Assembly: GCA_963969365.1 (NCBI GenBank)
Contig: OZ017746.1
Span: forward strand, 1,798,001 to 1,862,000
From: Asterochloris sp. CNOR1
Lineage: Eukaryota; Chlorophyta; Trebouxiophyceae; Trebouxiales; Trebouxiaceae
Direction: 5' to 3'
DNA: 64,000 nt
Of the stretch, positions 19,090 to 60,300 are shown in pieces (the first letter of the stretch is position 1; the number at the start of each line of letters is the position of its first letter). Both the position numbers and the translations under genes were made by a program. Below the pieces are notes generated by a model, which was not told where the DNA came from, did not search any database, and saw nothing but the letters and a program-made list of their open reading frames with translations.

Positions 19090-22000
19090 TCACATCTGGT
19101 TCAGGTGGGTGGGCAAGACTTTAAAAGTCTGGTCATAGCAGAAGGGTTCTAGATTGATTTCGAGGGCAGAAACAGGGAAGGGGATGTCAAATGCTTTCAG
19201 CACTTGAGGGTGAATCACACCAAACTTTCCTATGCACGCAGCCACTGAAGCAGCACTTTCTCTTATGCCATCAGCTTCCTGTGATGAGGCCTTTCCTTTC
19301 CAAGTAGCCTGAGAGCTTGGGGCAAGTGCAAATACATCTGCAGCCCTCCCCTCAAAGAATGTCTGGGAGTCATTGTGGCTGGCATCAGCCTCCTGCCAGT
19401 AGTACCCTCCCTGGGCAGGTGTGCCTTCAGGGTTGGTCTCAGCTGCAGGCAGTGGCACTGAAGGGCAAAATCAGGTGGCTGCTGTCGTAGCAACAGGTTG
19501 AGCACCCACTCCTCCAAGGTCATATTCTGAAAACGAGATGTGACACCCTGCTGGCTGGCGAAGAACCCATACATCAACACCCTCAGCAGTGGCAACCTCA
19601 GCGAATGATCTCAAATGCAGATCTTGCATCTCTATCCATCACAGCACTGCCGACCCTAGCAAGTCCATCAGCAGGCCTGTCAACAGGCTGTGCTTGATCT
19701 TGCCTTACCTTGCAGCAACGGGACACCTAGCACCTCCATGACCCTGTTGAGCAAGCCATGGATGATCTCGAAGCCAAATTCTCTGCTGCTGTGCACCGCT
19801 GCCAGCCTGCGCTGGTTGCAGGCTCCTGACTCAGCCTGACTGTCCAGGAAAATGACATCTGACACCTCAAACAGCTTGACAGGGAGGGGGGCATCCTTGT
19901 TGGCCCCCAGCGTCTTCAGCAGACCTGCAGTCACCAAACACGATGAGCATGTTGACAAACTAGCAGCCTCAATGCCGCCAGCGTGCAGACGACCTGCAAG
20001 CAATGCAAAGCTGTGGCTCTAGAGCTATATGGTGTGCATGACAACGGTCCCAGACAGGAGACACAATCTGGATTTGGCACCCACCTGGCAGCAGAGTGCT
20101 CCGGCAGACCTCAAACTCAGCAGTGGCGGGGTTGCCACAGCAGACTGCAGTCCGGCCATCGTCGTTGCGCCTGAGGGCCTCAAAGTTCTCATGCCGTGAA
20201 CAAAGCGCCCAGGTAAGAACCTCTGAAAAACCTGCACAAGCAGTAGCAGAGTTGAGAGGTGTTCGCTTGCAAGACAGCAGCTGCTCATCCTGCCTCCAGG
20301 GCTGATGATGCTGGGCAAAGCACGAACCCAACAGCAGTTGATGGCCTGTACTCCTCACAGTCAGCAGAGCATGGCCATCACTCTTCAGACATAGCCCTTC
20401 ATTGCAGCGTGTCACAGCTGTGCTGGAAGTAGCTGGCACCTGACATGCTGCTGTGCACACTCCAGTCCCCACTATGAAGACATACAAAAGCACCCTGCAG
20501 CACTGGGGACGCCCTCAAGCAGCTGATAGAACTGACCTGCTGCTGCACACTCGCCCCTTAGCAGCTCCACCAATTGGTTTAAGGGTAGCTCCCGCCCCGA
20601 AGTCACAGTCTGGGGAACGGCCTCCTGCAGCTGATTGTAGCCGTAGGCGATGGCCACGTCCTGCGTGGCAGCAGGAGCAGGTCTGCATTTTGCTGGGCCG
20701 TGCTCGGGTCTGTGTTGCAGCAGCTCTGTCATCAAGCCGCAATCACCCCCATCAGCTCCAAACAGCAGAAGGCCTGGAGGCCTTCATACAAGACACCTCC
20801 ACGCGTTGCAGGATCCGATCACAGCTTCATGCAAATACAATGTCAAAGGCTGTGCCTATCACTTCTACAGCTGGAGGTTGTTCATCCGGCATGTGCTCGG
20901 CTGCCCACAAGACCCCTGCACAGACAACAAGCCGCTTGAGGCTCACCTCCACAACGTCACAGGCGTGCAGGACATCGCTGCGTGTGACGGGCACATTGCA
21001 GTGCACCTCCTGCCCATCCTGGGAGGCTGTGGCACTGAGCTGCATCTTGCTCAGTAGCCTGGCAATGGTAGCAGCATCCAGGGAGGTGCCCACCACGCCG
21101 TTCACCTGCCGCACCGGTACATCCAGCTGCCAGCTGCTAAGACGCGGCGTCACTGCAGCATGTGCAGTAGAAGTGGGCGGCTGAATCTGCTCAGGTACAA
21201 CAGGTGGGCACTGCAGTTTACACAAGGCGGTTATGCATCAGTTTCGTCAGCTGCTAGCTGTCTAGACATCACTGCAGTGTGGCCTCTGGCTGGATGAGGA
21301 GCAGCCACTCTGCCAAAGGGCAACCTCAAAGGCATACTGCGCTACAGAAGCAGTTGCTCAGGCCCTGCCATTCTCCAATGCATCTGCAGGAAGACAGTCT
21401 CAGCTGTGAACTGCCCTCCTGCACGCTGGGAGCAAGTGTGGGCACATCAGCGCCCCAGGGGTTCACATCCAACGGTGTCAAGCAGATCAGGCTGCTGCAA
21501 CCCAGGATTCTCGTGCGACTGCCCTCAGCTGTGTGACCTGCTTGCCAACCTCAGATGGTGCTAAGCAGACGGGGCTGCGGCAGCCCAGAACTCCCCTGCC
21601 GTTGCCTTCAAGTGTGACCTGCCCCATCAGGACCCAACACCCGCACTGGCGTGGTCAGGACCTTCAGTAGTTACTGTGGAACTGGCGCAAGGCTCTCTGA
21701 CCATCTCCCTCACCTGTGACCTGCCCATCAGGGCTCACCACCTCTACAGGCTCCACCTCATATGGCGTGGAGCAGTACTCCCCAAACATGGCGCACAGGG
21801 TGGACACCACCACATGGGCCTTGGTCAGGTCGGTGGCAGTGGCCTCAATCAGGATGTCCCGCGTGTCCAGGCTGATCTGCAGGGCAGTTGCACAGGGAGA
21901 CTGAATGACCTGGGGCGAGCGGCCATGCAGCAGGCAGCCCGGTAGGCAGGGGGTGAGATAACTGCCAGGCTGGTGGTCTTGAGGCTGCCTCAGGACCTTT

Positions 22001-24959
22001 TGAGTCTTCTTGCCTCCATGCAACAGGCATAGCTCAGACACAGCTGCTGCCTTCTTGCAATGCCTGCCTCACTGCAGTGGGCAGAGGGGGAAAGACGAGG
22101 GGCTCCATGCCACCTTTGCATGACAGTACATCTGCAGCAATGAAGCAACGCCTCCCCATGAGGCATGTGGGCTTGGATGCAGGTGTTCCAAGCACCGCCG
22201 AGTGAGCGCCGTTGATGATGGGAGGCAGTGATAGGACTGTCCTGTTGGCGTCCAGGACCACTGGGTACACGATGGAATCGAAGATGAGCGGTACAAATTT
22301 CTTGAGCTTCTGGTCATGCTCCAGCATGTGCTGCAGCAGGGTCACACTGATGTTGAGGGTGGTGTGAGCTTGTCAGCAGCAGAGCAGAAAGGTGCACGCA
22401 GCAGCAGGGCAGAAGGGTGAAGGCAGCAGCACCGCCGGTTTCGCAGCAGGAGACAGGGTGACGCATCAGCAGCCTTGCTGGCTGAGCAGCAGAGCCCACA
22501 AGGTTTCAGGCACAACCCAGCAGCGCTGACAGGCTTGCAGCACATCACGTGGGTATGTACAGAACCACAAACCCAGGACCGGGCAGGGGACACGTCACAT
22601 CTCACACAGGCAACAGATGCAGGTGGCTTCGGCAAAGCTGGCATGCTCTCAAAGTAATGCAGCCTTTGAGAGACAGGACACCAGTGACGTCACCTCCAGC
22701 AGCTGCCGGCTCTGATATGTCTTCTTCTGCTTCAGCGGCACAAAGTTGATCTCCTCCGGGCGCAGCGCTTCGTAGGTGAAAGGGCCCTGCAGGGGCAGCA
22801 CATAGGATGTGCTGCTGGCCAGGCCTTTTCTGCTGGGTCTGATTGCTCCAAGCCTTGCACATACTAGGCTATGCGCGAATCTAGGACCCTGTCCCTGACC
22901 TCCAAGAGGGCGACCACTGAGGAAATCGACCCTCCCAGCAGACATGGAACCAGCACCTTTGAAGGTATAGATGCTGCAGCCAGATCTGCAGGAAGTCCAT
23001 TTACAGCAGTGCTCCCACTAGTGTCATTCAGCAGCAGCGCCATGCAAAGCCCCAGCTGCCTGCGCCCTCACCATTTTCAGAACATCCGACAGCCCAACCT
23101 TCTGTAGCACAACCTGTGCGCTTGCGCAGGCAATCTTCCCTGCCCTTCAGCGGCAGAGGACAGGGCTAAAGCGACAAGTTACAGCAACATGATAATTAGA
23201 TAGGCCCCACCCGGTCTGTTCCCGGGTCGTGCATCTCAATCAAGACTAGGAAGTGCTGACAATGCAGACCGGCGTGGAGGGAACCCCCGCAGCGCATTGA
23301 GCTGCAGTCCATGTGGTGATTCAGATGTCCATGTGAATCAGCAGCAGCGCAGAAGGCCCACCTGCACAGTCCCCAAGTCGTGCGTCCCGATGGAGACCAG
23401 GGAGCGCTGGCGGCACAGATTGGCGTGCAGCTTGTCCTGAAGGTCGATGAAGCTGTTGTAGCGCGCAGCATCAAATTTGACCCCCCGCAGGACAGCGCAC
23501 ATGAGAAAGGGGCGCACCAGCGCTGTCTCGGGGCGCACCACCACGCGCTGCATCTGGCGGCCTGCAGTCGTACGGGTTGCAGGCTTTGGCAATGCCAGTG
23601 TTTCAAGCCATGTTATGCAGCTTTCTGGGAGCACCACGCGCTGCATCTGGCAGCTGCTGCAAGGTAGCAGCGGTGCTAAGCACCGAAATATGAGGATGTC
23701 CAAGGCAGGCCCAGGTTGACTGCAGCTCTCCAGTGTCAGCAGTGCCTGCGCATCTGTGTAATGCCAGTGAGCAGGCTGGTCTAGGGTGGTGGGCGGACTT
23801 CCACACGATGCTGGCAGCCCGCAGGCAGGCAGCTTTTGTGGCGTCAGGCCACTTGAAGGCACGGCAGTTTACATTAGTGGCCTTGACCCTTTGCTGTGCA
23901 CTCTGCAACCTGTGGGCGGGGCCCTGCTTGTGGGTTTGCCACCTAATTGTCAGCTGCCATAATCAACTGAGGCCGCCTGACCCACACAAAGCAAAGCCAC
24001 TTAGAGGCCTTTCTCCAGAAGCTCGTCAGCAAAGGCAGCCAGCAAGTGGCATCTATCTCACTTTGCATGCCCGTCCGTCTGCATTTGGTGGTGGCCATGC
24101 AGACTGCAAGCCCTGCGATGCCATGCAGGGCGCTATGCAAGGGAGGATCAGAGGCCAAAGGCTTCAGCAGAGACGGCAGCAGCCTCGCCAAGGGACCCCA
24201 TCGGGTGGCAGGTGCCTCACCCTTCATGTCTGCAAGCTTGAAGCTGGGAGTGGCCATGCGATCATTGAAGATGTTGAGCGCCCGGGCGATTCCCTCCAGG
24301 CACAGCATGTCATAGCGGTTGGCAGGGATGTCAATCTTGTACACCACCTCATCGCTGCCACCAGCAGCCTGCAAGCCAGGATGTTTGCTTCTCTGGTTTG
24401 GGAGAGGGCCTGCAGTATTGCGGTGGCTTGCAGGGGCATGGAGTTTGCTGGACACCAGGTGGGTGCTGCAGGGTTTGCTGGAGGGGGGGAGTGCCTGCAG
24501 TGTTGCGGCATCCTGCAGGGCATGAGCGTTGCTGTAGAGCAGGTGAGTGCTACAGGGGTCCGGTAACGCCGGGCGGCTATGGCAGGCTCGGCAACCCCGT
24601 CAACCTGGAGTCCAGCGTGCAATGGCCATCACCTTGCCCCCTGCTTCCTTGCGGAACAGCTCCTCCTCGGTGACCTGCAGGCATGGTAGCAGTCAGGGCT
24701 GGCTGGGGCTGCTGGAGAGCCAGCTGCAGAGAGATTGCGGTAACTCACTACATCGTCCAATTCAATGCCATAGTTGAAGCACAGCTGCTGAAACTCATCC
24801 TCAGCTGCAGCCAGAAGAGCAGGGGTTGTTGGCAGCAAGTCAAAGGGCTCGACTTCATGCACATCATGGTGGGGTGTCATGCTATACAGCCGTCGCCTTA
24901 CTGTAACTCGTTCCCAGAGCTTTGAACAAGCGATCCCGGCCAACGCTGACAACAGGCAT
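19090..24959 (-). CDS. FARSB: Cytosolic phenylalanyl-tRNA synthetase beta subunit
   Basis: Beta chain of the cytosolic alpha2-beta2 enzyme that charges tRNA-Phe. Exon 1 (24959-24902) starts MPVVSVGRDRLFKALG and exon 2 (24804-24749) continues TEDEFQQLCFNYGIELDDV; the phase at this junction agrees. Further exons recognised: VTEEELFRKEAGGKVMAIAR (about 24675-24600), VYKIDIPANRYDMLCLEGIA (about 24345-24230), FLMCAVLRGVKFDAARYNSF and LVSIGTHDLGT (23571-23363), FTYEALRPEEINFVPL (about 22790-22690), FDSIVYPVVLDANRTVLSLP (about 22330-22170), ISLDTRDILIEATATDLTKA (about 21885-21725), REVNGV-like B5 segment (21150-20945), IAYGYNQLQEAVPQT (about 20660-20530), NFEALRRNDDGR (20190-20090), PLPVKLFEVSDVIFLDS (about 19925-19720) and a C terminus FGVIHPQVLKAFDIPFPVSA. 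The last 17 residues go beyond the usual end. Introns here hold several decayed exon copies (reported separately). The gene starts 67 bases from the divergent thioesterase gene. Confidence 0.94.
21471..21732. repeat. Imperfect tandem repeat, about 81-base unit, spanning an exon 3' end of PheRS beta
   Basis: Two diverged units at about 21471-21541 and 21552-21622 share blocks such as ggtg.caagcaga and tgtgacctgc. The block gtgtgacctgccccatcagg (21612-21631) is again nearly repeated at 21714-21732, where it is the coding end of the exon ...SPDGQVT plus its GTGAGG donor on the minus strand. The intron downstream of this donor is therefore built from copies of the donor region. Confidence 0.7.
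23218..23280. repeat. Decayed copy of a PheRS beta exon 3' region inside the next intron
   Basis: Without gaps, 23218-23280 matches 23369-23431 at 43 of 63 positions. The latter is authentic coding sequence (minus strand, ending KLHANLCRQRSLVSIGTHDL). Translated in the same frame the copy gives SLHAGLHCQHFLVLIEMHDP, so reading-frame similarity is also visible. The copy lies about 150 bases downstream of the true exon in transcript direction. Confidence 0.72.
23633..23652. repeat. Copy of the 5' edge of a PheRS beta exon in the preceding intron
   Basis: A 20-base block (caccacgcgctgcatctggc) is identical at 23633-23652 and at the true exon start at about 23540-23559, which encodes QMQRVVVRPE on the minus strand. 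The copy reads QMQRVVLPES and is about 95 bases upstream of the true acceptor in transcript direction. Confidence 0.72.
24405..24560. repeat. Two-copy imperfect tandem repeat, about 75-80-base unit, in a PheRS beta intron
   Basis: Units near 24408-24478 and 24489-24560 share the order gcctgcagt.ttgcgg, tgcagggcatg, gttgctg and caggtg.gtgctacagg or close variants. It is intronic and matches no gene product. The unit carries both an AG-like and a GTGAG/GTGGG-like border. Confidence 0.6.
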
Positions 24960-25026
24960 GGCCTCCCTTGCGTTTGCTCTTGGAAAGAAAGCAGTTTAGG
25001 TCTGTTGACTGGTCTACACTTTGAAG
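24960..25026. promoter_or_regulatory. 67-base divergent interval between PheRS beta and thioesterase start codons
   Basis: The two predicted start codons face away from each other with only 67 bases between. Either both transcripts have very short leaders driven by one bidirectional core promoter, or the transcription units overlap at their 5' ends. The thioesterase frame has a stop at 25006-25008, so its start cannot be moved upstream without an extra exon. Confidence 0.6.
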
Positions 25027-27317: not shown

Positions 27318-27416
27318 AAGCCAGCAGACTGGCGCTCAGAAACAAGTTTCTGGGCACCGCATTTTGATCAAGTATTGCAGCAACAAACAAATGACAGCCA
27401 TGAATGGACTGCGTCA

Positions 27417-30400
27417 TCAACTGCTGCCTGCAGGATGCCTGTCCAGCAGGCCCTGCGTCTTCAGCAGGAATGCAAAATTCAGGGCTGTCTCGTGAAGTTT
27501 GTCAAACCTCCCACTCTTGCTGAAGTGGCCAGCGCCCATATCGCACTTGAACAGCAGCAAGTTCTTGTCTGTCTTGTGCTCCCTCAGCTTGGCCACAAAC
27601 TTGGCAGGCTCCCTGGAAGCATGCACAGTGTTCTACAATGATCAAGCAAATTCTGATTGAACAGGCAAGACCTTTCATACTGATGCCTGCCAGTACTGAC
27701 ACATGCAACAAGATGTACAGCACTCACCAGTACCCCACACGCGGGTCGTGCAGGCCCGCGGTCACCAGAATGTTGGGATACGCTGCAGCCTTGACGTTGT
27801 CCACTGGTGAGTAGCTCAGCATGTATTCATAGTACTCCTGCTTCTGCATCACAGGCCGGGCAGACGTTGTCAGCACACTGCGGTGCAGGCAATGCAAAGC
27901 ACTACAAAGGGGACAGGTGCTGCAGCTCAGGCCTCCAAATCAGCACACAGCTGCACTTATGCTGTCAGCTTGCTGCAATACAGGCAATGCAGACCAGCAA
28001 CAAGGAGCAGGTGGGTAACGCTCATATTGCTCGTGGAGCAGCGCTGTCAACAGGCAGCTGTGTGATCAATGCAGAGCATCAGCAAGGTGCAGGCGCCCAA
28101 GGCTCAGGCTTGGCAGCCGCACCACAGGTGAGGCAACGACGTCAGCATGCAGGCAATGCACAGCAGCAGAGGCCAGACGCGTGCAAATCATGCTGAGGCG
28201 GCAGCGCTGCTCCACTGTAGGTTCACCTCTGGGTCCCCCCTGCAGCAGCCAGGGTGGCCAAGGTTCAACAACGAGTTGTGCAGACATTGCTGAGAACTGA
28301 TGCACAACTGCACCAAGATGTGGCAACTGCGCCATGTGGATGAGCCGCTGACAGCCACTGTGCTCAACATTGCACCTCACATAAGTGCGAGCCTGGCAGG
28401 TGCAAAGGCCGCTCAGAGCTGCGAACATCTGACCTGCCTAGGAACGGCCAGGCCTGACATGTACAGGCCGCCCAAGACTACAGCACAAAGCTGACAAGTG
28501 AACCAGAGCTGGGCAGGCCTGACACAGGCAAGGACTGCACACAGCTGCAAGGCAGACAGCCTGGCCGCTCACCACTCCTCCTTCTCAATGTTGGTGAGAG
28601 GGATGCTCTCATCCATCATGGTGGTCAGAACATCAACAAATGGCACGCCCATGATGGCTGCGCTGAAGAGGTCAGGCCGCATGTTGAGCACAGCCCCCAT
28701 GGTCAGCCCGCCGGCAGAGCGCCCCTGCAGATGCACACACTTTCACAAGCTGAGTGCTGCTCTGGCACAAGCAGCCCTGCCATGCAAGCCACTCACAGAT
28801 CAGCATGCCATAAGTTGTGCACCAGCAGGAGCCAGCAGTGGCAAACATACAAAGCAGTGACTTGGGCTTGCCACCAGCCTGGCAGATGCTGGCACCACCG
28901 ACATGCATCCAAGGCGCAGCAGAGAAGGCTGTCATCTCAGAGTGCCATCAAGGGTCTGCAGTGGCCCCAGCCGGCAGAGAGGCGGCGATCACCGCTGCGC
29001 AGCAGACCGGCTCTGCTGCCCACTACCAGGCACCTGCAGCACATGCACCGGCATGCAGTCGCTGACCTCAATGCACAACTTGTCGTTGCTGGTGTAGCCC
29101 TGGCTGATGAGGTGCTCCGCACAGCTGATGAAGTCCGTGAAGGTGTTCTTTTTGTGGAGGTACTTGCCTGCAGGCCAGGTGGCATCAGTGTCCAGCAGAG
29201 ATGCGACTTGCAGGAAGTCACAACGCGCGCACTAGCATGCTCCAGTGGCTAGTGGCTGTTGTCACATCTGCTGCATGCCCAGATGAAGATCGCAATCACA
29301 GGCAACCAGGCACCTGTCACCATGCACCTGGAGCCTGCAGGCAGCCTGCTCACCATTCTCATACCAGAGGCGGCCCAGCTCTCCACCCCCCCTTGCATGC
29401 GCGATGGCAAAGGAGAAGCCCCTGTCTAGCAAGCTGATCCGGATGGAGGAGAAGTATGGATCGTTGCAGATTTCATAGCTCGCATACCTGTGGGGCAAAC
29501 AGCAAAGGTCATGAGCCTGACAGTGAGCTGCAGAGGGCTCCCGCTGCCACGCCATGGGCAGCAGCAGAGACAGATTGCAGCCTTCGTCGCAGGCTGCTGG
29601 GCTGCCTGAATACAACTCAAGCAGCTACATGTGCTGCAGGGGCAGGAGAGCTGCCTGGATCCATCACAAAGCTGGCGATGGAACTGGGGACTCTGACAAG
29701 CTGCACTGGGGCACAACCAGCAGGGCAGCAGCCCAGCTGCGGCCTCAGGCAGCCCACAGCACGGGGCAGACCCACTCCTTCACACTAGCCACAGGCAGCA
29801 GTTTGCAGCATATAGCAGGACGATTGGTTCATATCAGCCACAGGCAAGGCAGCAGCTTGCTGTGGCCTCAGCCCGCCTGCAGCATGTGGCAGAACCCATC
29901 TTCGTTCAGTGTGCTACCCATTGCGGCTGCCATCATACACACCAGCAAAGCTAGGCTGGGGCCTCACCCGTCCAGCAGCATGGGGCATGACCGACTTGTT
30001 GACATCAGCCACCGGCAGCAGCCGCGCTGAGGCCCACGCCAACCAGCAGCATTAACCAAACCCCAGCCTTTTTTAGTCGAGTTGCCCTTCCAACCTCCAA
30101 CATGCCCACCGGCCAGCAGGCAGCCAAGCTGACGCCTCACCCATTCAGCAGCATGGGGCATGACCCATCCTGTTTAAAAAAGTCCTTGCGGTAGACCAGG
30201 GAGATGGGCACCTTGGTGCCGTCCTTTGCGGTAGCCCACAGGCGTTCAGTGTGGTACTTGCTCTTGTCAAAGCCACCCAGCACCGGCTGCACCTTCTTGA
30301 CCTCCCTGCAGCGCAGCACGATTATTTTCTTCCCAGACTGCTAGGCAGCAGAGACAGGCATACTGCACCTGACAACCTTCCTGTAGCACAGCAATACCCT

Positions 30401-47097: not shown

Positions 47098-47527
47098 TCT
47101 CACTGAAATTTTCATGGTCACCTGGCTGAAAGAAAGGTGCAGGGTCGTTGTTCTTCTTGATTGCTGTAGATTGGTCCCATTGAAGGCATTGCAAAGCTTC
47201 TTCACCAAAACATAGGTGTTTATGAGCCACCTGACTTGGGCCTGGGTAAAAATATGGGCACATACAACACAGTTCAGTGGCTACCCTGATACATGTTGTG
47301 CAACTTCACTATACTGTGCACAGTATACAGTTGAATCACTCTAACAACAAAATGACAGTGATGATGTTGGGCCAGCAGCGCGGCGTGCAGGTGCCGTCAC
47401 CTGCATGATCACATTATACCCAAGATGTGCATCATGACATCACACAAAGGGGGGCATTGGTGCATCAAAGGGTGGAAGTCTCTCGATGTCACATGATTGA
47501 TAGCTGGATGGCTGCAGGGGCAGCAGC
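47098..47527. other. Convergent intergenic region, alpha-SNAP and PI4K gamma 3' ends
   Basis: 430 bases between the stop codons of two convergent genes, holding both 3' UTRs. The stretch 47240-47440 is AT-richer than the coding flanks. No separate gene or hairpin terminator was recognised. Confidence 0.5.
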
Positions 47528-50500
47528 TCAGAAGCGAGGGCATGAAACACCCATATTCTGCATGGCATGCACGCCTCTGCCCTTTTGCACTTCCTGCCTC
47601 CAGCGGCTGTCCTGCAGGCCTTCATGCACCTACAGGGGAACAGAGCCATGTTGGGCACAAGACAGCACAAGGCTGGATGATCCAGCAGTCGGCCTTGCAT
47701 CACTGCCAACGGGGCATGCAAGGCTGTGCCACAGCGCACACGGGTGCCTGGACTGGGGCTGCTGGAGGTAGGCTGGCAGTGATTTAGCAGCAGCAGGCTG
47801 CTAACAGTGCAGCAGCTACCTGCTCCAAGAGAAGCTCGAGGAAGAACTCCCACTGCTCCGCAGTCATGTTGCTGAACACAGGATTTGATGCGTCAGGTTG
47901 CACAGGTGGAGGATAGGCCTGCACGCAGCCAGAGGGAAAGGTCAGCTCTGCAAGCACCTGGTCAGATGCTGGACCATTTACCCACAGCGCCAAGAGATGC
48001 CAGCCAAATTTAGCATGTTGACATGGCACAGGAAGCGGACGCGCTGTGGCCAGCGGTCTCAGTGCATCTGTTGTGCAGCTGTGTTCTTACAGCTGTACGA
48101 TGCAGTCATACCTTGGCTGTCTGCTTGGGGGTGCCCTGCTGCCCATGGGGGCGCCTGTGGCGTTGGCGCTGGCGGGCAGGGCCCCTCCCCATGAAGCCTG
48201 TGGGGTCCAGCGAGGCAGCCATGCCCCCTGCTGGGCCCTCCCCACCCCGCACCCTCAGCATAGACTGCCCCAGCTGCCGGCGTCGCTCGGCCAGGTAGGC
48301 AGGCTCGGGGGAGCGAGGTGGGTCTGCCATGGCGCAAGCTGCAGGGCACAGGGTTTGTTTTCAAAGGAAAACCTCTCCAAAACTGTTTCTCCAAGGGGCC
48401 ATCACTCTCCAGGAAGAGATTCATAACACATATGTCGACACATACGTCAGCACAGAGGTGGCATCCCTGCAGAATTCCGGAGAGGTTGACTGCCTGCAGG
48501 TCTGAGTGCAGCCAGCCTTGCACCGCACAATCAGAGGCCTGTGCCACATGCAAAGGTTGCTGTCCTACTAACACCAACAAGCTGGGCTTCAAGCAAAGCA
48601 CCACCCAGGGTTGTGGGCAGGCAGTGGGTGCCTGTCCCTGTGCCAAGGAATCACCTCTATGTTCCAGCAAGCCCTCGAAGGCAGGGCCGCACGCAGAGCA
48701 CTCACAGGCTTGGGCAAGGCGGTGGGTGGCTGTCCCTGCTCCCAGCGCTTGCAGCAGCTTCGCAGGGGCCACAGGCGGGCAGGCCGCCCCCAGGCGTGAC
48801 TGCAGCGGTGAGATGGGCACGGTGCGGGTGTCCTCCAGCTGGAACACAAGTTCTTCACTCTTCTGGCCTGCAGCACACGGGGCCTCAGCCTTGCTATGGC
48901 CAGAATTGCAAACCATGACGTGTGTTGTTCAGTCATTCCCTGAGAGAGGGAGCCCCAAGAGGGATTTCAGGCATGCCGCACCTCTGCTGCCGTCTCGACT
49001 CTGCATCTGACCAAGCGCACACACGGAACGCACAGGCAGCGCAGAGCAGAAGCAGGCAGTATGGCATCCCATTGAGTTGATCAGCAGCACAGCAGCTGCA
49101 GCATCCATTGCAGCATCTGAGGGACATCTATCCTCCCACCATGGGTGACCTCTGGCAAAACGCCGGTTGCCAGCGGTTGCTCACCTCCCACAAGCAACAT
49201 GTCTGGGGCCACGCAAACTGCCATGTACGAGCAATGCAGCGACCCGTCAGGCACCTGCAAGCGCGCTCATCCTGCCACTGGGCGTGGCCACCAGGCTGCT
49301 GTTGAGGCCCAGCGAGCTGCCCTCAAAGATGTCACTGCGGTGCCCCAGGCTGAGACTGCTGCTGCTGCTACTCAGCATGCGGTGCCCAAGAGACAGGGCT
49401 GCTTGCCGGCCCCTGCTGCAATTGCGTGTCTCCCCCGGCGCCTGCAGGAGCAAGCAGAAGGTCAGCTGGCTGGACTATAGCTACGGGGGCAGCTCAAGCC
49501 GTGGGCATCGGCGCAGAAGGTGCCTGAAATTAAGTTGCAGGCCTCCAGTGCCTCCCCGCCAACCACCACAGTCACGAGCTCAGCAGCGGTGAGCCACAGG
49601 CCTCCTGACAGCACCACTTTGTGCCCCCAGTACGTCTGGCTGGTCCCCTAGTTCAAAGCCCCAGGTTGCTGGACTGCGGGAAGTCAAACAGCTGCCCTGC
49701 CTTGCTTCTGCAAGACATCTGAGTGCCATGGCAGCTGTCATGGGAGCCCAGCCCTCAGGCGGATCCAGCAAGTGTTGTAGTTGGCCACTTGGGTCCCTGA
49801 GCAACTGCAAGTGCTGCTGCCCTGCCAGCTCTCAAGTGGTCACCTGGGTGTTGGGGCAGCTGCCGCTGCTGCTGGCCAGGGAGCCGCCGAACCCGGGCGC
49901 CTCATCCTCGCTGCAGCTCTTCTCGGAGCAGCTGCTGTCGCTGTCATCGCTGCTGCCGAAGCCCCTGCCAAAACCCCCTAGGGCTTGGTGGCTGTCCACC
50001 TCCTGGCGGGCCAGCATGCACATGCGCTCCAGGTCAGAGGGCTCCTCATCCATGCCCACCTGCAGCACACGGGGTGATCAGCGCTCAGGCTAATGCTCAT
50101 GTCTTGCTGGGCCTAATGTCCAGCCAACGACTAGCAAGGAGAGGGGCCCAGTGCTCTGTGCCTGCCGATGACATGAGCCTGGTCTCAATTTAATGCCAGG
50201 CTGCAACATCATGCACTGGGTCCCTGTCAAGCAGGGAGAGAGGAACCATTGCTGCCAGCCGGCATGCTCAGCTTGGTGCTGGGGCCGCCCATACACATTG
50301 GGATGCCCCTGCCAGGTGACCACAGAGATCAGCCCCGCACGTTGTATCCAAAAGTGTGACTGGAGGCTAGTCGGGCACCTCAGGCAGTCTCACCAGTGGA
50401 CGGCTGATGATGGTCCCGATCTCTGCCAGGTTCAGCCCTGCGGCTGCGCAGCGCTTGAGCAGGGTGGTGGCCACCTCCAGCACACGCAGAGCCTCCAGGC

Positions 50501-53500
50501 GGAACCCTGGCAGCTCGCGGCACAGAAGATCAATGTCAGCCTTGGGGTCCAGCGCCTCAATGTAGGCCAGCTCCTCCGCGTCAAAGGGGATTATGGCCTG
50601 CAGGCAGGCTCAGCAGCACTTGACAAACACTGCTGAGGCCACAGCCAATCCTCAAGCAGTTCTGCAGTGAGGCAGCTCATTGAAATGAAAAGCGCCGCGG
50701 CCTGCAGATGCCAAAGGAGGTCATGGCCTGCAGAGGAGTCGAAGCTTGGTTGGCACTGATGGCAGCATGTTTGAACGCAGTGCAGGCTAACTTCTCAGCA
50801 TCAATGGGGATTAAGGCCTGCAGTGGCAAGATGACAGCTGCAGAAGCCAATGGAGACAGTGACTGCGATTGCAGTGCCACGCCTGCACAGCCCAGGGGCT
50901 CATGGCCTGCGCAGGGGAGCAGCGTCAAAGGCAACCACGCAGAGGACACCTCACAAAGCAGGCAGAAAGCGTACTGCGCTGCCTTGACTGGTGGGGCACC
51001 TGAAGCCAGTACGTACCCCTTGAGGCCTGGCAGTTGTCTCCATCATGGCACAGCAAGCCACAAAGATACTGCATGCTTGTGTGGTACTGATGGGTGGCTT
51101 ATCCAGCCACATCAGTGCAACATTGTACCACCGGCAGATTTCAGAACAATGACTGTACATTAGCAGCTGACCTGGGGCCAGTGCAGCCACTCCAGGTAGG
51201 GCGGCTCCAGCGCCTCAGGCAGACAGAAGCCGTGGTCGATGGGCACCAGGCGGCAGGTGCGCTCCTGCAGACCCCCTGAGCTGCCCCGGCCTGCAGGCAG
51301 AGCCGAGGGACCTCATGGCTGTCTGAGTTCCGCGCCTGCGCACTTGCAAGCTGGGCAAATCACCCTCCTGCCGGACCAGCAGCAGCAGCCAGAGGGCCTC
51401 ACCTGTGTTGCAGAACTGAACCAGAATGTTGCCTGCAGGGCATGTGAAGATGGTCAGGGCACTCATGTGTGAGCCAGTTAAGGGAATCCATGAGTGAGCC
51501 AGTACGTAGAGTGGCTTGACAGTCGCCCCCACAAGCCAGCCTGTCTGCTGCCAAGCAGCTTGTGCAGCTGCCTGCCTGTCACAAAGGCATCCCTGACGGG
51601 TTGAGACCAACCTGCATGTCTGTCTGTGTTGAAGAGCCTGCAGGGCAGTGAAGGGTAAAGTGAAGGGTAGAGACACACAGGCACCATGAGCAGACAGCCT
51701 TTAAGGGGCTTCCAAGCCTACCTGATGTCCAAAATGCCAATACGGTGCACATCCTTGGCTGAGTATCTGCACAGCACCGCGACAGCACCTCAGAGTTGCC
51801 ACCGCAGATTGGCTGTCACAGCTAGTCCAGTGCTGCCATGCATTCGCAGCCCCCAAGTATGATGCAGCAGCAGGCGGACCAGGATGCAGTGCACAAGAGC
51901 ATCCAGTCTGAAAGCCAGACCAAGCAGCATCATGCCCGCCGCTCACCTGCTGGCGCCCATCTCGCTGGTGTCCCCATCGTGCTGCACAAACTGCTGCAGC
52001 GAGCCCAGCTTAGTGGGGCCCAGCAGATGACTTGAGACAGGGCAACCCTGCGCCTGCTCCTGTTGAACATGCGAGTCCCTCGACAGCGCAGCGGCCCCAG
52101 CAGCAGCAGCCAGGGCTCTTCTGCTGCTGCCACCGCCCAGAAGAACTGTACTGGCAGCCCCAGCAGCAGCAGCTGTAGCTCTGCTGCTGCTACCGCTGCC
52201 CAGGGAGAGGCCCAGGATGGATGCCCTGCCGTGAGGGGGTGCTCGAGTCTGCACGGCGTCGCGGGGCTCTCCGCGGGCCTCTGCCGGCGCAAAGCCGTAC
52301 TGGCTGGGCGGCCGTGCGACGTCCAGGCTGCGGCTGAGCCCCCTGCCAGACGTTCCCTGGGAGCTCTGGCTGCTGCCCTCAGCAGGGGTGGAGGCAGGGG
52401 CAGCTCCTTCCTCTGCAGCCCCCCAGTCCGCCGCAAACCTGCTGCTGTACACATGCTCCAGAATAAGCTGGTCCAGCAGAGGAGCAGCGCCCTTCAGGGA
52501 GGCGGCCCCATCGTGGGGCAAGCCCCTGCACCCAGGCGTCGAGCTGCGGAGGCTGAAGCGTCCTGGGCCTGCATCTGAGCTCTTCCAGCTGGCAGCTGCC
52601 TGCTGCCTGCCAGCCGGTGGGCAGGTGGCCTCTGCCTCTGCACCCCCCTCCAGCAGGCTGTGTTCCTCCACACAGCCCAGCTGGCTGCCAGCACCCCTGC
52701 AGCCGCCCCGCCCAACCCCAGTGCAGCAGGTGCAGAGGCAGCTGGGGCCCCCAGGGCGACTCGGGGCAGCAGCGGTGCAGCTGAGCGCCCCAGCCCGACT
52801 GGGAGCAGAGGCACTGCTGCCAATGCTGAGGCTGTCGCTCTCAGAGCTCAGCTCTGCCAGGGGCCAGCTTGAGCGGCCTGGCAGCCCGGAGGCAACATCG
52901 CTGGAGGCCTCGCTGGGGGTTCTGCCCTCCGGAGCAGCGCTGCGGTTGACCTGTTCCTGCCGGGGGAGGTCCTGAGCTGGGCCTGGGTGGAGGGCAGGCC
53001 TGTCCGTGGACACAGCAGCAGCAGCAGCAGCCTCAGCGCTGCTGACGTTCTGCTCTGCGCCCGGCCCTGCCTCATGCCTGGCAGACAAAGAGCCGCCCTG
53101 TGCTGACCCACGGGTGAGCTCTTCCATGCTCCTGGCAGGCCTGGCGACATGGAAGCAGGAACTGGTGATTTTGACGAGCCAGGTGGGGGGAACGTGGGCA
53201 AAGTGCAGGTCGTCCAGCAGAAACGCTGCCACTTCGCGCATGGCTGCCTCCCCCACGCGCACCGTCGGCTTCAGGCCTGCATCCCCCAGCTGGCGCCCCA
53301 CAAAGCCCTGCAATTGAGGCAAAGTTTGCTCAACGGCTTGCAAATGACCCAGGGGATAGACGTTGAGCTGCAGGGCTTTGGTTGGATTGGATTGACAAGC
53401 GCCTTTCGGCCAGTCAGGCTGGTGCACAAGCACGGACCACCTTTGGATTGTTTGGGGCCAGTGGTTCCTCATCACAAGGCTTGAAAATTGCTGTCTGGAC

Positions 53501-54217
53501 AGCAGAGGCGTCCTTGAAAAAGTACGTGCCACCCAGTCCCTCCCTGGCTGATTCAGGTTCCTGCAATCCAGCACCGTGATGCAATCAGCACCCAGCAGGA
53601 CTGCGATGAGGATTTGATCAGCTTGTTTTGGGTACATTTCACAGATACATCAGCTGACACCAGGCACGCGCGTGAGCGCATGCCAATTGACACGTGGTGC
53701 TTGCGCATGGCTCACCTGACCAGCAGCAAGTCCTCCCAGGATGGCATCCACCAAAGACCGCACTGCAGGGGTGACGTTGCCATGGTGCCTCAGAAGCTGC
53801 ACCGCAGGCGCTGAGACCTGCAGATGACATGGGCATGCGCCATCAGCTCCGTGACCTCCCTTTCCATCACATCTGCAGCTGGACAGCGTTTCTCTGTGTG
53901 CTGATCTCTTGCCTGGCTGTGAAGCGTGCCCGGCAGCGTGAAAGTTTCTGCTGCATTGGCAGGCGTCTCCTGGTGGGTGGGGACGTAAGCCATGAATGTA
54001 TGTGAGGTCCTACACCAACAGGCATTGTCAGATTGCCGGCCAATGTATGGCCCAGACCTGATCTGGTAAGGCCTGCAGTGCCCTGAGCGAGCAAAGCCAA
54101 TTCGCACAAAGCGAGAGCATGTGCATTCACTTCGAATCGCAACTGCTGGCTGCCTTGGGAGTTGAAAGGATCACATTGTAACAGAAGTCTGGGTTCCACG
54201 GGTGAGGTTGATAGCAC
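47528..54217 (-). CDS. PI4KG: Phosphatidylinositol 4-kinase gamma with N-terminal ubiquitin-like region
   Basis: Plant/algal type II PI4K-like kinase. The core is secure: GGTYFFKDAS..AVQTAIFKPCDEEPLAPNN (about 53559-53475) joins in phase to GFVGRQLGDAGLKPTVRVGE and VPPTWLVKITSSCFHV (from 53307). Then follow SLQQFVQHDGDTSEMG (about 52005-51955), VHRIGILDI (about 51750-51722), FNTDRHAG (about 51630-51605), GNILVQFCNT (about 51435-51408), CRLVPIDHGFCLPEALEPPY (about 51255-51195), and FDAEELAYIEALDPKADIDL. A Ser/Ala-rich segment of about 360 residues interrupts the kinase fold (52020-53150) unless it is an unrecognised intron. Exon 48867-48706 and exon 48330 region join at matching phases through GTGAGT/CCCTGCAG. 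The last exons end VFSNMTAEQWEFFLELLLEQ and a stop at 47528, resembling the family's C-terminal block. The N-terminal part from 54217 looks like a weak ubiquitin fold (LRFEVNAHALALCELALLAQ), but its link to the kinase was not phased. Confidence 0.85.
50712..50824. repeat. Two decayed copies of a PI4K gamma exon start in the preceding intron
   Basis: 50782-50824 matches the true exon 5' region at 50562-50604 in 34 of 43 ungapped positions, and 50712-50733 matches 50582-50603 in 19 of 22. On the minus strand the true exon begins AIIPFDAEELA after CTGCAG. The nearer copy reads AMTSFG and the farther copy ALIPIDAEKLA, each after its own CTGCAG. Spacing is about 130 and 90 bases. Confidence 0.8.
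52020..53150 (-). other. Low-complexity Ser/Ala/Gly insert inside the PI4K gamma kinase domain
   Basis: Between SSCFHV and LGSLQQFVQHD, adjacent blocks in plant PI4K gamma proteins, the minus-strand frame stays open for about 1.1 kb. It encodes Ser-, Ala-, Gly- and Pro-rich sequence with internal repeats such as SRATAAAAGAAS and SRRALAAAAGAAA. It may be a disordered insert or a spliced-out segment: a GTGGGT donor near 53115 and a CTAAG acceptor just before CTGGGCTCG exist. Confidence 0.6.
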
Positions 54218-54373
54218 TCATTGCTTTAAAGCCTCTGCATGGACGTGATCAGCCTGCTGGCAGGCTCTGGGCCCCTTCCGGCCCCTGCTCGCCATTCACC
54301 CCGGTTGCACTGACCTTTAAGACTACTTCTCAAGTACATTGAAAATTGGGCAGGGCTGCACTCCGACATCACT

Positions 54374-57300
54374 TTAGCTCAAATCGAAGCCAGTGGCATG
54401 GTTGGCAGCATACAGCAACTTCTCTCTAATTTCGTGGGCAGATCGGTATGGCGGGAGCTTCAGGAGATTCATGCATGTGGCAGCAGTGGGCAGTCGATCA
54501 GTTGAAGCTGAGTCCAGCACGCTCCCAGCCATCTGAATGCACAGCGGGGGCTGCAGATAGCTGAAGCCCAGCAGAGGCGCCCTGCTGCAGGCTGTGATAA
54601 ATTTGAGCAGTTTGCTCCGATCTAAAGGCTCAAGGGTCTCCACAGCCTGCAGTGCATGGGTGCCAGTCCCACAAACATTCCGGCAGGTGAGGCTTTGCAA
54701 GTGCAACGCTTTGCATATTGCCAATGGTCAAGGCATTCTGCTGCACCCCCCACCTTCCAGAAATTCTGCATGACAGGGTGGTCTGGATGGTAGCCGCCAG
54801 CGTAGTTGACATGGCTGCGCGCATCTGCCACATTGAAGCCCTCGCCACCACCACTGATGAGCATCTGCATCTCCTCCTCATTGAACATAGCCACCTGCGC
54901 ATGGGGCTGCTCCATCCGTCAGGGATCTGTCTTGAGCACCCTGAGCTGGGGGCTGTGCCTTCCTTTCGGAGGACAAAGGAGCAGGCAGGGATGACTGGCA
55001 GCCTGCTGCAACCTGCATTTCCTCCGGCTCAGCATTTGCTCACCCAGTCCAGCTCAATCAGATCGTGAAATCCTCGCAGAAACGCCTCGCTGGCCGTCCT
55101 GATCTGCAAAGCAGGAGGACAGCATGCATTCCTATACTGCTACCATCATGGTGCATGAAGGTGGACGCAGCAGGCAGCAAAACGGCTTGCTGCCATGCAC
55201 ATGCTGCGCACCTGCTGGTTGAGGCGATGATCTGCCACGCGATGGAGATACTCCACCACATTGCTGGACGTGACTGAGCGATCACGTCCGCCAGGCACCA
55301 GCTCAATCTGCACCCAGGAAGCCCTGCAATTAGCACGCCATCAGGCACCAAAGATCATGCAAATGGTGCTGGGCTGAGGCTGCGTCGCATATGGGTGCTT
55401 GCCTCTGCAGCTCAGCACAGCAGCCAGCAAGATTCTCAGGCTTGCAGCAGCAGGCACTCAGGCCCCAGCCACACTGAGCAGCCAGGCAAGGGTGTACTGC
55501 AAGGGCACGGTGCTGGGCAGTGCTGGAAAAGTTGTGCATGTTGCTTCCAGTGCACCATCACAACTCACCTCTTGATTCCCATCTAGCACTGACTCAGCTG
55601 TCGTGAATGACAGCGCAAGGTCCCCAAAGTCTCCCTGCAGGCAGCTCGCCGCAGCTTCAGTGAGCAACATTTGCTGCGGCAAAGCAGCCCAGCCTGACAA
55701 TGCAATCCAGCACGACAGCAGGCAGGCCAGACATTGTCTTGCAACAGGCTCCCCACACATATGCTGCGCAGTGGTAGTCCAGGTTGGCAGTGCTCTACTC
55801 ACCTTGTAGTCCCGCAGGAACATCAGGTTGTTGTACAGCTCAGGGTCCAGGGTATACAGGTCGTTGACATCGGCGCGCATTGTGCGAACCTTCTTCAGGA
55901 AGAAGCCTGCCAGAGGCAGCTCCACCAAAATGCCCTGCAGTGAGGGCAAGTGACAGTCTTCAATTATATGCTTCACTGTGCCACGACCAGCCCCACACAG
56001 GTATGCTTCCAGGTTGGCAGGCAGCAGCCTGCCAGGGGCCAGCTCCAAGAGAGGTGCTTCCTGGCAGGTGGAAGCCCCCCCGCAGCATGCACCATGGTAG
56101 CTCAGCAAGTGTGCTTGCTTGCTGGCAGGCATGAGGAGCAGAGGCTGTGCATGAGGGCTCCCTTACTTGCAGGCGCTGGCCACAAGCAAGCGGTTTGCAT
56201 TGACCCATGAAGTTGCAGTGAGGAGAAGCCCCTGCAGGCAGGTACCCCACCTCATACAGGACTTTGCCCAGCATGCGCCCCAGGAACTCGTACAGCTCCA
56301 GCGCATGGGGCACCATGCGTAGCGCTGAGGGGTTTGGATACAGCCGGTTATCCTCTGTGGCCCGGAACAGGCCGCTGTCGGGGTTGAAACCAGTCTGTAG
56401 GGGCGGCAGGCAGGCTGAGGCGATGTGTCTGGCCCTGACATGATGGCAGACAGCAATCAGGCAGCCTAAAATACTGTGTGGCCCTCAGGCTGATGGTAAC
56501 GTGCAAGCCTGAGAGGCTGCTGCCTTGGCAGGCATGGAGCATAGCCTGAGTCTCCGTGGACACCCTGCCCAGGTAGTTGACTGCTAGAAATCCCGCAAAC
56601 AAGGGGCCAAGCCTGGACCAGAGGATCAGTCTCAGTTGCTCACATGCAGCTCAGCCAACATGGCCGACGGGAGCAGAGCAACACTTTATCGCATGAGGTC
56701 GAACAGGGACCACTGGGCAACTTTCTCAGTTCTTCAGCAGGCCATGTGCAGCTTCAGTTGACTGGTGTGGACCTGACAAGCTAGGGTTTGTCAGTTGAAA
56801 CCATGAACAGCAGCCATGCGAATGCAAGCTGACATTGTACAGGGAGGCCATGCAGCCCCATGGCAGCCCTTTCCTGTGGCCTGATCCTCTGGGAAGGCCC
56901 GACCTGGACCAGGGGTGTTAGGCAGTCCCTGAGCAGCAAAGCTGATTGACTGGGAGACAGTTGACTAAGTCAGACTAGCATTAAACACAAAGCTGACCTT
57001 GATAAGGGACTCCATGAAGTCCTTGAGCAGGCCGCCCCCATCCACGCCTGCCTCCTCGATTCCGTGCTCATTAATGAACTGGATGCGGATGCGGCTTTTC
57101 AGGTCCTGCCCAAGCTTGTTGAGCTGGTCGAACCCATCCTGCAGCAGGCTCAGCACCATCAACTAGTGTGAAAGACACTGAAGTCTTGCAATCAAAGCAA
57201 ATTGGGCTGGTGAAGCCCACATACTTCCAGCGCTAGTTGCACGCACTGCTGCTGGGGTCGCTGCAGCGCACACATCAAAAAGTGCCTGTGACAAAGCCAG

Positions 57301-60300
57301 CACCTAGACGGAGGCACTCATGTCTGAGTGAGCTCAGCAAAGGCAGGCTCAACGAGCTGGTCAACCTGTCCTGCAGCAAGAAGACCGCAAATTAGGGGCT
57401 GCTGCTGCTTGCTCAGGGTGGCGGAGGCAGGGCCAGTGCAGCGAGTATCTAGGTGGTGCGCACTGAGACAGTGCTGTAGCAGGACCGGCCTCTGAATGCA
57501 GGGATTCTGAGGCAATGCTGCGGCACACAGGCAGGCCCGTCCCTGCTTGCCTGCAGTAGGGAGGCGCGCCTGATGGTCACAAACACGTTGGGCCCCATGC
57601 CCATCATGGCGGCCATGTCTGCATCACGGTTGCTCTCTCGGTCGCGGCGCACAACTGTTGTGAATACCCGTGTGCGCTCCTGGAAGGGGATCAGAAAGGG
57701 CGCATGCCTACAGGGGCAAACAGCAGCAAATGTCAGGAGGGGATCGGAAAAGGGGCCTGACTTAGATTGCAGCCTGGCACAGGAGAAGATGCACACCTGA
57801 GAATGGCCCACACACGGGTGTGGGTGGCCTCCATGAGCCCGCCTGAGACGGCTGCTGCTGATCGGACCTCCTGCTGAAACAGCTCTGGCGCCAGGTTGTC
57901 GGCATAGAATGCTGCAGGAGGGGCAAATGGCCGGCGGCTGTTACGGTCAAACAGCTGCCCCAGCAGCTTGCCAACAGACTGTTTCAGTGCAATCCGTAGC
58001 TGAGCTGCAGGCCCCTGGAAGGTGCCTGCACAGCAGGACAAGGCAGCGTCAGCCAAAGGCAGTCAGCCAAGTTTCACACATTTGGGCTTGGGCACTATTC
58101 ATCAGTCCTTTCTGCCTGTGTCAGTGGGGAACAGCACAGCCACATTTTGGTGATCTCCAGCCAACGAGTGCCTGTCAACGAGTGCCTGTCAGCATTCCCA
58201 GACCACATCAGCATCGATGCAGAGTGCTGCAGCAGTTCAGCCAGCCCAGCAGGCTGCTAAGGTTTCCACTGTGGGCAGGCATGCCCTCAGCTACAGCACA
58301 TGCCACAGTGCTTTGTTGCATCTCCAGGGGAACACAGCAGCATACGACACTACACCCTCAAGAGGGCACATCTGGGCTGCTCACCATGGGACGAGGCACT
58401 TTCTGTCCACAGCACGTGCCATAGCGCAAACTTCAGCAACGCCAGCACGCCCGATCTGGGGGCGGCTGGGTCATACAGCTCCGTCAGGGGCAGCGGGCGC
58501 TGGTGCTTGTACATGTCTGTATCTGCGCTGGTGCTGATGAAGGTCGTGTACACCCGGCAAAATATGCAGAGGGGCAGCATCCAGCCAGGGTCGGCTAGTG
58601 CGTCCCGCTGCGGGCTCCAACTGCCTGCTGCAAACGTGCCCTGCAGGTCAGCAGTCCAACTCATGTGTGCATTTGCCCGTCTATAAAAGCAACAAATAGC
58701 TTGGTACAGCATCCTGCCAGAGGCTCTGGCTGCCTGCTGCAAAGGTGGCAGGTTGGGTCGAGGGCTGCATGGCAGCAGCTTGGCTTCAAGCTCCATCTGC
58801 CTCAGCAGACAAAGGCAGTTGGTGCAAAGCCGCAGCAGAGTGCAGAGCCTGCATCAGGAGCAATCGCTCCATGCTGACCTGGGAAGCAGGCAAAGGGTCT
58901 GCACAAAGATATGCTGCCAACCAGGCAATCTTACGCTCTGAGCACGACTCCAGACCCACTGCAAGCAAGCCTCACCCGTAAGCATGAGAACCAGAGGCGG
59001 GGCACCAAGTCCGCAGCCACAGCCAAGTTTATGAGGACCTGTGCCTGAAGGGCCTGCATCTCCAAAAGGCCATGCAGCAGCCTGCACAGGCTGTACACCT
59101 CGCCAGTGGGGACAGTGGGCCCCTCCGGAATGACAGAGGGCAGCTGCTGCTGCACCAGGGCACGCAGCAGGGGCCCCTCCCCCAGCTGCCGCAGCTGAGC
59201 TTGCAGCAGGGGGGGTAGCGACGCAGCTGCATTCCAGGCCAGCATCCCTGCAGGCACCCAGCACGCTCTTGTTGTGCAATGCAGGGCATAGCCACCTGGC
59301 TACCTCCTGGTCCTGCAATTGTGGAGGACCTCATCCTGTGGGCACCTGCCTTGCTCGTCTTGCTGCTACTTCCTGTCAATTGTCAAGCTCCCATGCAAAG
59401 TCCAGGGAACACGCAAAAGGCAGTTGCTTTGTTGACGAGCTGACCTGATTGTGCGCCTGCAAGGGTTGGCTCTGGCACCTCATCGTCCAACAGATCTGCC
59501 TCTGTGTTCACACCACCCAGGACTTGAAAGAGGGGCGTCACTTGCAGCAGCTGCTGCATAACCAGGGCGAAGTGGACGGCTGCTCCTGAGTCGCCCTCTG
59601 CCTGCAGGCAGCAGCTCATGCCTGCATCTCTGCAGGCCACCTTGCTGGCTGGGGGGCTGCATAAGACCGACAAGAAAGCTTGGGCTGCATGCAGTTGTGC
59701 CAGACAAACGCTCCTGATCAGGGCAGATCACACCTGCAGGGCCTTGCCCCCAACCTCTGCCAAGTTGCCCAGCAAGGCGACTGCTGCACCAGCCTTGCCC
59801 CCAATGAGGTCTGCTGGCAGCCACGTGACAACATCGGCGGCAATCATGGGAGAAAGGGCAGTGACTGCCTGGCGCCACAGTCGACTCGACACCTGCAGAA
59901 CATATTTGTGCATGACTTGAGGGCTTCTGAAGCCAGCTGTCAGAGGCCAGCCAGCATGGAGTCCGCCCTGAGCACATCATGCTGTTGTGCAATTCAGGGC
60001 AACCAAATGAGGCACAGCGGTGCACGTGCACTAACACGGACACAGAGGCAGGCTAGAGCACCCACCGTGAGCAGAACATGAGGGCACCGCCCCCACAGCA
60101 GCGGCGCACACAGCAGCTGGGGCACAGTTGAAGCCAGGCTGGCAATCCGGGGCTGCTGCTGCAAACTGACAAAGCGGACTGTCAAGTTGCTGATGAGCAC
60201 TTCTGCCAGCAATATGGGGGCAGCTGCCTGGGCTGGGGCCAGTACGGGGCAGGCAGTCAGCAGCAGGCGTGAGAGGCTCTTGAAGAGCCTCCCCCGGGAT

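Follow-up and report, generated by a model that had tools for sequence, protein, structure and literature searches.

Small tandem duplications, including one that crosses an intron-exon boundary, have already been described. In the potato RdRp gene, the accessible part of PMC4974935 describes a tandem duplication over the end of an intron and the start of an exon, 3′ splice signals included, by which a new intron was made, and also mentions a further one of 83 bp lying within an intron; PMC3443670 reviews how introns can arise by tandem duplication. According to the accessible text of PMC8355091, small tandem duplications arise from break repair through CST/Pol alpha-primase fill-in and end-joining, short tandem duplications being called there the commonest short insertions in the human genome; in rice, insertions of 10–1000 bp, many of them tandem, are on record (Vaughn and Bennetzen 2014, as cited in the accessible text of PMC7407515). 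Unannotated exon copies left in introns by tandem exon duplication are, in the accessible part of PMC9013439, whole exons that are often expressed, and exonic bases with an intronic copy at ≥80 % identity amount to 0.08 % in fly and 0.06 % in worm. Here we analyze a 64,000-nt stretch of the genome of the green alga Asterochloris sp. CNOR1 (C1:1798001–1862000, hereafter the window; the genome comprises 56.38 Mb in 21 contigs), whose introns contain decayed direct copies of the edges of their adjoining exons. An open-access literature search, covering titles and the starts of abstracts, did not find decayed exon-edge copies as a genome-wide pattern.

Exon edges recur in their own introns

The window was studied within a sample of 312 kb, consisting of a contiguous 262-kb block (C1:1700001–1962000, window included) and five 10-kb pieces from other contigs (L023–L027). 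For each of 1135 predicted exon edges, a segment of 15 intronic and no more than 50 exonic bases was matched to three targets: the edge's own intron, a length-matched unrelated intron, and the own intron after shuffling. At a score of at least 16, 69 of the 1135 edges matched their own intron, against 1 for unrelated and 0 for shuffled introns; these figures were 94, 5, and 6 at a score of at least 14, and 163, 51, and 48 at a score of at least 12. The pieces from other contigs alone gave 15 of 163 edges matching their own intron versus 0, and acceptors (39/571) and donors (30/564) did not differ significantly (p 0.32). Copies of exon edges in their own introns are real and far above chance. 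A sequence-only reading of the window had put forward this comparison with shuffles and unrelated exons as its own check, and its finding passed.

Direct repeats in general behave likewise. With an ungapped score (+1 match, −1 mismatch) of at least 20, there are 22 in the window at offsets of 12–399 versus 0 in five block-dinucleotide shuffles, and 92 within 400 bp in the 262-kb block versus 0 in three shuffles; each of the five pieces from other contigs contains 4–9 nearby direct-repeat pairs per 10 kb. Offsets peak at 60–200 bp and are sparse past 300 bp, with 92 pairs at 60–250 versus 18 at 700–2000 in the block at a score of at least 18. At this same score, and up to 2 kb apart, 155 pairs are direct versus only 14 inverted. 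The copies are therefore local and direct, as the sequence-only reading had claimed, and its view that transposons or random repeats explain them poorly agrees with the locality, the orientation and the shuffles alike. TGCAG is indeed frequent in the introns (1145 occurrences in 174,892 bases), but shuffles and unrelated introns yield 0–1 hits versus 69, which rules out chance or CTGCAG-rich composition; a transposon family, or inverted repeats, are in turn ruled out by locality and orientation, because the copies resemble only their own neighborhood. The probability that we leave to chance matches or transposons is practically nil.

In piece L026 (C11:500001–510000), eight direct repeats occur at offsets of 300–2000 in 10 kb, compared with 0–1 in each of the other four pieces.

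Probable tandem duplication across splice junctions

It is highly probable that small tandem duplications occurring at random, when they straddle a splice junction, leave a decaying copy of the exon edge and lengthen the intron. Such duplications, with a period mostly of 30–300 bp, would arise at roughly random sites of the genome. When the unit lies across a junction, the outer splice site, which stays beside the rest of the exon, would be kept and would be the only one used in the mRNA, so that the protein would not change; the inner copy of the exon edge and its splice site would drop into the intron, adding approximately the length of the unit, and would then drift as non-coding DNA. Repeats inside exons would survive almost only as multiples of three, and the apparent concentration at edges would result from these filters together with the longer survival of pairs in which coding constraint acts on one of the copies. 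The event itself would be a duplication of DNA, for which end-joining after a staggered break is a plausible molecular cause.

The 262-kb block contains 119 non-redundant pairs with a score of at least 18 and an offset below 400, after removal of 14 redundant repeats: 38 intron-intron, 5 intergenic, 38 edge-intron, 16 exon-intron, 15 exon-exon, 5 edge-edge, and 2 exon-edge. Repeated units do span exon edges, as in the 38 edge-intron pairs of the 119, and an edge lies no farther than 12 bp away in 45 of 50 exon-intron pairs. The assertion that copies always resemble the adjoining exon was too broad, since 43 of the 119 pairs are non-coding on both sides; its locality and direct orientation stood. 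The period is a multiple of three in 14 of the 15 exon-exon pairs, and the remaining 104 pairs distribute as 32/39/33 over frames 0/1/2. The two copies of a pair are direct and appear to abut in the non-coding pairs (33), where gapped copies cover a median of 0.81–0.86 of the repeat period, as expected of abutting copies, the agreement being weaker in the 60 exon-involving pairs. At least one intron in eight contains a recognizable duplication, and introns with a relic have a median length of 342 bp (n = 74) versus 224 bp (n = 500) for those without.

The intronic copy drifts as non-coding DNA: differences between exon and relic are evenly spread over codon positions 1, 2, and 3 (115/526, 120/531, and 135/525; 21.9 %, 22.6 %, and 25.7 %; p 0.29).

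Alternative explanations

The intronic copies might instead be functional alternative exons or alternative splice sites, as hinted by the perfect acceptor of some relics; among repeats crossing the edge, TGCAG is present in 16 of 22 acceptor relics (counted by eye), AG is kept in 19 of the 22, and 10 of 17 donor relics have GT. A search seeded with exon sequence only, however, finds relics that keep TGCAG at the cognate place in only 10 of 34 acceptors and GT in only 10 of 29 donors. Therefore, the statement that copies keep the acceptor or donor motif is true of some relics only. Because the edge-crossing set is biased by its own selection condition, we claim no selection on relic sites; that set hints at a selective retention of relic acceptors, and the exon-seeded set does not. 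Functional second exons are also rejected by the codon-position test, which did not reveal the coding constraint on both copies that would characterize mutually exclusive or cassette exons, and for PheRS, OPB (oligopeptidase B), and alpha-SNAP the proteins built from the outer splice sites line up with solved relatives, making functional copies very improbable. Equally improbable is an intron gain of the Rogers type, in which a duplicated exonic AGGT provides both donor and acceptor, so that the end of the exon resembles the end of the intron, or the start of the intron that of the exon, one intron length away. Donor and acceptor both fit CAG/G here (the slash marks the splice site), and in the edge-edge pair 66497/66787 they occupy nearly the same position of the unit (offset 290 versus an intron span of 284). 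There is also a slight, weak excess at low scores, with 22/564 introns versus 30/1128 controls at a score of at least 10 and 10/564 versus 10/1128 at a score of at least 11. This excess vanishes at a score of at least 12 (3/564 introns versus 6/1128 controls), and no case reaches 16 in introns or controls. Moreover, without the duplicated unit the introns still have a median length of 253 bp, with 3 of 65 under 60 bp and the other 62 at or above it, and the intron therefore predates the duplication. The creation of introns by tandem duplication is thus largely refuted in this sample: existing introns grew, and there is no direct evidence for intron gain. Of the original proposal, tandem duplication over a splice junction that leaves one copy as exon and the other decaying in a longer intron is supported, but not the creation of introns, and what had been presented as unusually direct evidence for intron gain is evidence for intron lengthening.

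Two further alternatives concern the geometry and the placement of the duplications. That short segments were copied to a spaced nearby site (templated insertion), rather than in tandem, is unlikely, even if several high-scoring segment pairs (HSPs) are short yet highly identical for their offset (e.g., 23 bp at 0.96, offset 93) and the exon-involving pairs cover a smaller share of the period. Against it stand the coverage of the period in the non-coding pairs and a comparison of 23 of them with simulated copies: in length, identity, and flank measures they are closer to tandem than to spaced copies, the latter having identities of 0.83–0.89 and lower flank similarity versus 0.76 in the real pairs, which simulated tandem copies match. 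Spaced copies thus fit the non-coding pairs more poorly than tandem ones, although single cases may still be such copies. Still less probable is that exon edges are preferred targets, e.g., through transcription- or splicing-linked breaks that start duplication there. Edge-intron pairs are approximately twice as frequent as expected from circular shifts (38 versus 18.6), also under three other annotation settings (37–42 versus 17–23, reached in 1, 0, and 0 of 300 shifts), and the share of exon-intron pairs with an edge within 12 bp is 1131/1372 in simulation versus the real 45/50. Exon-edge (2 versus 11.6) and exon-intron pairs (16 versus 23.8) are, however, both depleted, and total edge crossings are hardly raised (45 versus 36.3, p 0.06), because exon-edge pairs are depleted in step with the edge-intron excess. 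We then simulated tandem units placed at random and kept if non-coding or if crossing one edge with the outer site used, with introns drifting freely, exons at a rate of 0.25, and the same detection as for the real data. The simulated non-coding, edge-intron, and exon-intron classes (45.8:35.4:15.8) reproduce the observed 43:38:16 (p 0.83; 97 pairs, the 15 exon-exon, 5 edge-edge, and 2 exon-edge pairs, i.e., 22 of 119, being left out), and the fit fails without exon constraint (p 0.001). Random duplication and selection, with survival aided by constraint, are enough to give the observed class proportions and no targeting of edges is needed, so that the targeting of exon edges, an extension of the sequence-only reading, is not supported.

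Observations at odds with random tandem duplication and the shortage of young copies

Several observations weigh against random tandem duplication followed by selection and decay. Identity inside HSPs is no lower in the intronic stretch (448/553) than in the exonic one (1212/1582), contrary to what drift in both intronic copies would predict; this could be an effect of motifs and trimming. The frequency of TGCAG in the edge-crossing acceptor relics exceeds the simulated value of about 0.3, the 60 exon-involving pairs cover a median of 0.48–0.68 of the period, and HSP flanks on the exact diagonal are no better than the control (0.263 versus 0.262), rising above it when small shifts are allowed (0.362 versus 0.332). 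Long introns would catch more duplications by size alone. As for the simulation, its exon, splice-site, and indel rates and its age range are our own choices, it drops by assumption whole-exon and multi-edge units (1459 and 883 of 10,000 draws), and with a higher indel rate the fit is poorer by eye (1077:658:441). It also predicts many more young, high-scoring pairs than observed (score quartiles 25/38/67 versus 19/22/27). An identity of 90 % along 60 % of the unit is in fact rare among pairs with a period of 40–300 (2/33 non-coding, 1/60 exon-involving), and no pair has 95 %; the copies are too diverged for exact junctions, where microhomology or filler bases would mark break repair.

A constant birth of duplications predicts 27 % of the non-coding pairs at 90 % identity and 12 % at 95 % (2/33 versus 0.27, p 0.005), and Tandem Repeats Finder detected in the 312 kb only 5 arrays with a period of 40–300, 0 of them at ≥95 %. 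Since a steady state needs young copies at least as numerous as old ones, either the rate fell or young copies are hidden; the shortage stands although the four contig ends inspected have telomere repeats. Repeat-induced mutation, as a cause of the missing copies, finds no support in the mismatch spectrum, which shows no strong transition excess (268 transitions and 298 transversions in non-coding pairs; 259 and 267 from exon to relic). It is conceivable, though we hold it for doubtful, that the introns were built for the most part in a single former burst of small tandem duplications, now almost over, much of the remainder being perhaps older, unrecognizable rounds. If so, intron length would be a record of a changed repair regime, and not of transposons, and introns would be littered with ghost donors and acceptors.

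Exon-edge copies in the genes of the window

Such copies occur in 22 of the 51 predicted genes. The window contains 30 non-redundant pairs (score ≥18, offset <400), and 15 of its predicted exon edges have an intronic copy: 356, 2503, and 3397 in a UDPGP-family gene; 10906 in a PIG-L-family gene; 23361, 23561, and 24220 in the PheRS beta gene; 30140 and 31976 in the OPB gene; 43084 in a gene without Pfam match; 48705, 49843, and 50597 in a PI3/PI4-kinase-family gene; and 56997 and 58640 in a HECT gene. The OPB gene shows one donor edge followed by four relics, that is, five copies 71–123 bp apart, one relic with the donor intact. The highest score corresponds to the relic of UDPGP-family edge 356, in which the 12 bases that end at the acceptor are unchanged and the peptide is still recognizable. 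The features are as follows.

30122..30165, minus strand: OPB exon 3′ edge and donor (edge 30140/30141); spliced junction MLLNG/YASYE ungapped versus Leishmania-type OPB 2xe4
30018..30073, minus strand: OPB donor-edge relic 1, offset 102 (score 20, identity 0.68)
29949..29992, minus strand: OPB donor-edge relic 2, offset 173, GGGTGAGG donor intact (score 32, identity 0.86)
29859..29900, minus strand: OPB donor-edge relic 3, offset 269, donor lost (CTGAGG; score 22)
29728..29779, minus strand: OPB donor-edge relic 4, offset 392, donor lost (score 22)
31936..31983, minus strand: OPB acceptor edge 31976 (repeat pair)
32065..32112, minus strand: relic of OPB acceptor edge 31976, CTGCAG intact (score 20, identity 0.71)
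23357..23430, minus strand: PheRS beta donor edge 23361 (repeat pair)
23206..23279, minus strand: relic of PheRS donor edge 23361 (score 28, identity 0.69)
23539..23561, minus strand: PheRS beta acceptor edge 23561 (repeat pair)
23632..23654, minus strand: relic of PheRS acceptor edge 23561, 22/23 bases match, acceptor lost (score 21, identity 0.96)
24189..24259, minus strand: PheRS beta donor edge 24220 (repeat pair)
24030..24100, minus strand: relic of PheRS donor edge 24220, GTGAG kept (score 19, identity 0.63)
21465–21533 and 21548–21616, minus strand: two relics of the PheRS donor edge at 21713, the first case of the sequence-only reading (relic-relic score 27; aligned to the edge)
50558..50603, minus strand: PI3/PI4-kinase-family (Pfam family) acceptor edge 50597 (repeat pair)
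50778..50823, minus strand: relic of kinase acceptor edge 50597, CTGCAG intact (score 28, identity 0.80)
49782..49829, minus strand: relic of kinase donor edge 49843, edge copy 49837–49884 (score 18, identity 0.69)
48619..48647, minus strand: relic adjoining kinase donor edge 48705, exon copy 48717–48745 (score 19, identity 0.83)
56826..56869, minus strand: relic of HECT donor edge 56997, edge copy 56990–57033 (score 18, identity 0.70)
58709..58747, minus strand: relic of HECT acceptor edge 58640, exon copy 58600–58638 (score 19, identity 0.74)
310..368, minus strand: UDPGP-family (Pfam family) acceptor edge 356 (repeat pair)
418..476, minus strand: relic of UDPGP-family acceptor edge 356, CTCTGGCTGCAG identical (score 39, identity 0.83; top score in the window)
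2692..2729, minus strand: relic of UDPGP-family acceptor edge 2503, edge copy 2471–2508 (score 18, identity 0.74)
3476..3537, minus strand: relic of UDPGP-family acceptor edge 3397, edge copy 3346–3407 (score 22, identity 0.68)
10934..10959, plus strand: relic of PIG-L-family donor edge 10906, edge copy 10882–10907 (score 18, identity 0.85)
43107..43139, minus strand: relic of acceptor edge 43084, edge copy 43066–43098, in the gene without Pfam match (score 25, identity 0.88)

The three genes on which the original proposal rested (PheRS beta, OPB, and the PI3/PI4-kinase-family gene) are borne out. Among its weaker cases, the HECT gene has the two edges above, and alpha-SNAP (44741/44875) and "Virilizer" (63644/63784) stay weak, with a score of 17.

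Two genes contain repeats of other kinds. In the gene at 25.1–27.4 kb, the older repeats 25843–25980/27120–27257 (offset 1277, identity 0.58) and 25045–25074/26347–26376 (offset 1302) suggest a putative internal domain duplication. The long exon of the kinase-family gene (51947–53307) contains in-frame coding tandem repeats, with periods 63 and 39, at 52091–52820.

Gene models and splice sites

Genes were predicted with a small ab initio, self-trained gene finder, seeded from window genes, which at the chosen penalty gave 61 genes and 722 exons in 312 kb, 45 of the exons being shorter than 25 nt. Solved homologs can be aligned with the models of OPB, PheRS beta, and alpha-SNAP, except for one spurious PheRS stretch, the gene finder having added PheRS exons that find no backing in the human alignment. 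Pfam searches with window genes identified HECT, PI3/PI4 kinase, UDPGP, and PIG-L, and gave no match for a piece of the "Virilizer" gene, whose name is the putative label of the sequence-only reading, nor for the gene at 40–44 kb. The gene finder also fused the HECT and kinase-family genes into one 36-exon model with an internal stop (47528–61963), which is probably two adjacent genes.

The learned acceptor, TGCAG/G, is very strong and nearly invariant across the sample (T 0.90, G 0.93, and C 0.94 ahead of AG), and the donor (CAG/GTGAG) is much weaker.

The top match of PheRS beta is a eukprot protein labeled jgi/Astpho2 (92 % over the query, 98 % of aligned columns), which we take to be from Asterochloris sp. 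Cgr/DA1pho; the second best is from Trebouxia (64 %). CCCTAAA telomere repeats occur at the four contig ends inspected (4/4, from three contigs). The published genome of Asterochloris glomerata has 56 Mb and approximately nine introns per gene, according to the accessible part of PMC6652019.

Significance and comparison with known systems

What this analysis adds is a quantified green-algal case in which duplications crossing a splice junction very probably lengthen introns and then decay, and a null model that removes the need for targeting. This would be a measurable route to longer introns without transposons and without change of the protein, leaving dated relic splice sites. With approximately 6 % of the tested exon edges having a relic (69/1135), the lineage could be used to ask how genes tolerate duplicated splice sites. 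That a seemingly edge-targeted pattern can come from random duplication and selection matters for claims of intron gain by tandem duplication. The scarcity of young copies, if it is confirmed, would allow tests for a shift in duplication rate in Asterochloris and Trebouxia.

Among described systems, the potato RdRp gene, as presented in the accessible part of PMC4974935, shares a tandem duplication that spans the intron-exon boundary with its 3′ splice signals; there, both copies are used and a new intron results, whereas in Asterochloris one of the two decays and adds to an intron already present, leaving the protein unaltered. Intron gain of the Rogers type likewise involves genic tandem duplication with reuse of splice sites, but its mark, the similarity of donor and acceptor at the intron-length offset, is not above control in our sample. 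The short, direct, tandem copies are similar in kind and size to the duplications of break repair in the accessible texts of PMC8355091 and PMC7407515; those are fresh events, unlike the mostly old and decayed copies of Asterochloris, from whose sequence the molecular cause is not readable. In the cases covered by the accessible part of PMC9013439, exon sequence also recurs in the introns of its own gene, as whole exons there and as exon edges here; exonic bases with an intronic copy amount to 669 of 92,097 (0.73 %) in our sample, a figure that allows only a rough comparison with fly and worm, since the method differs.

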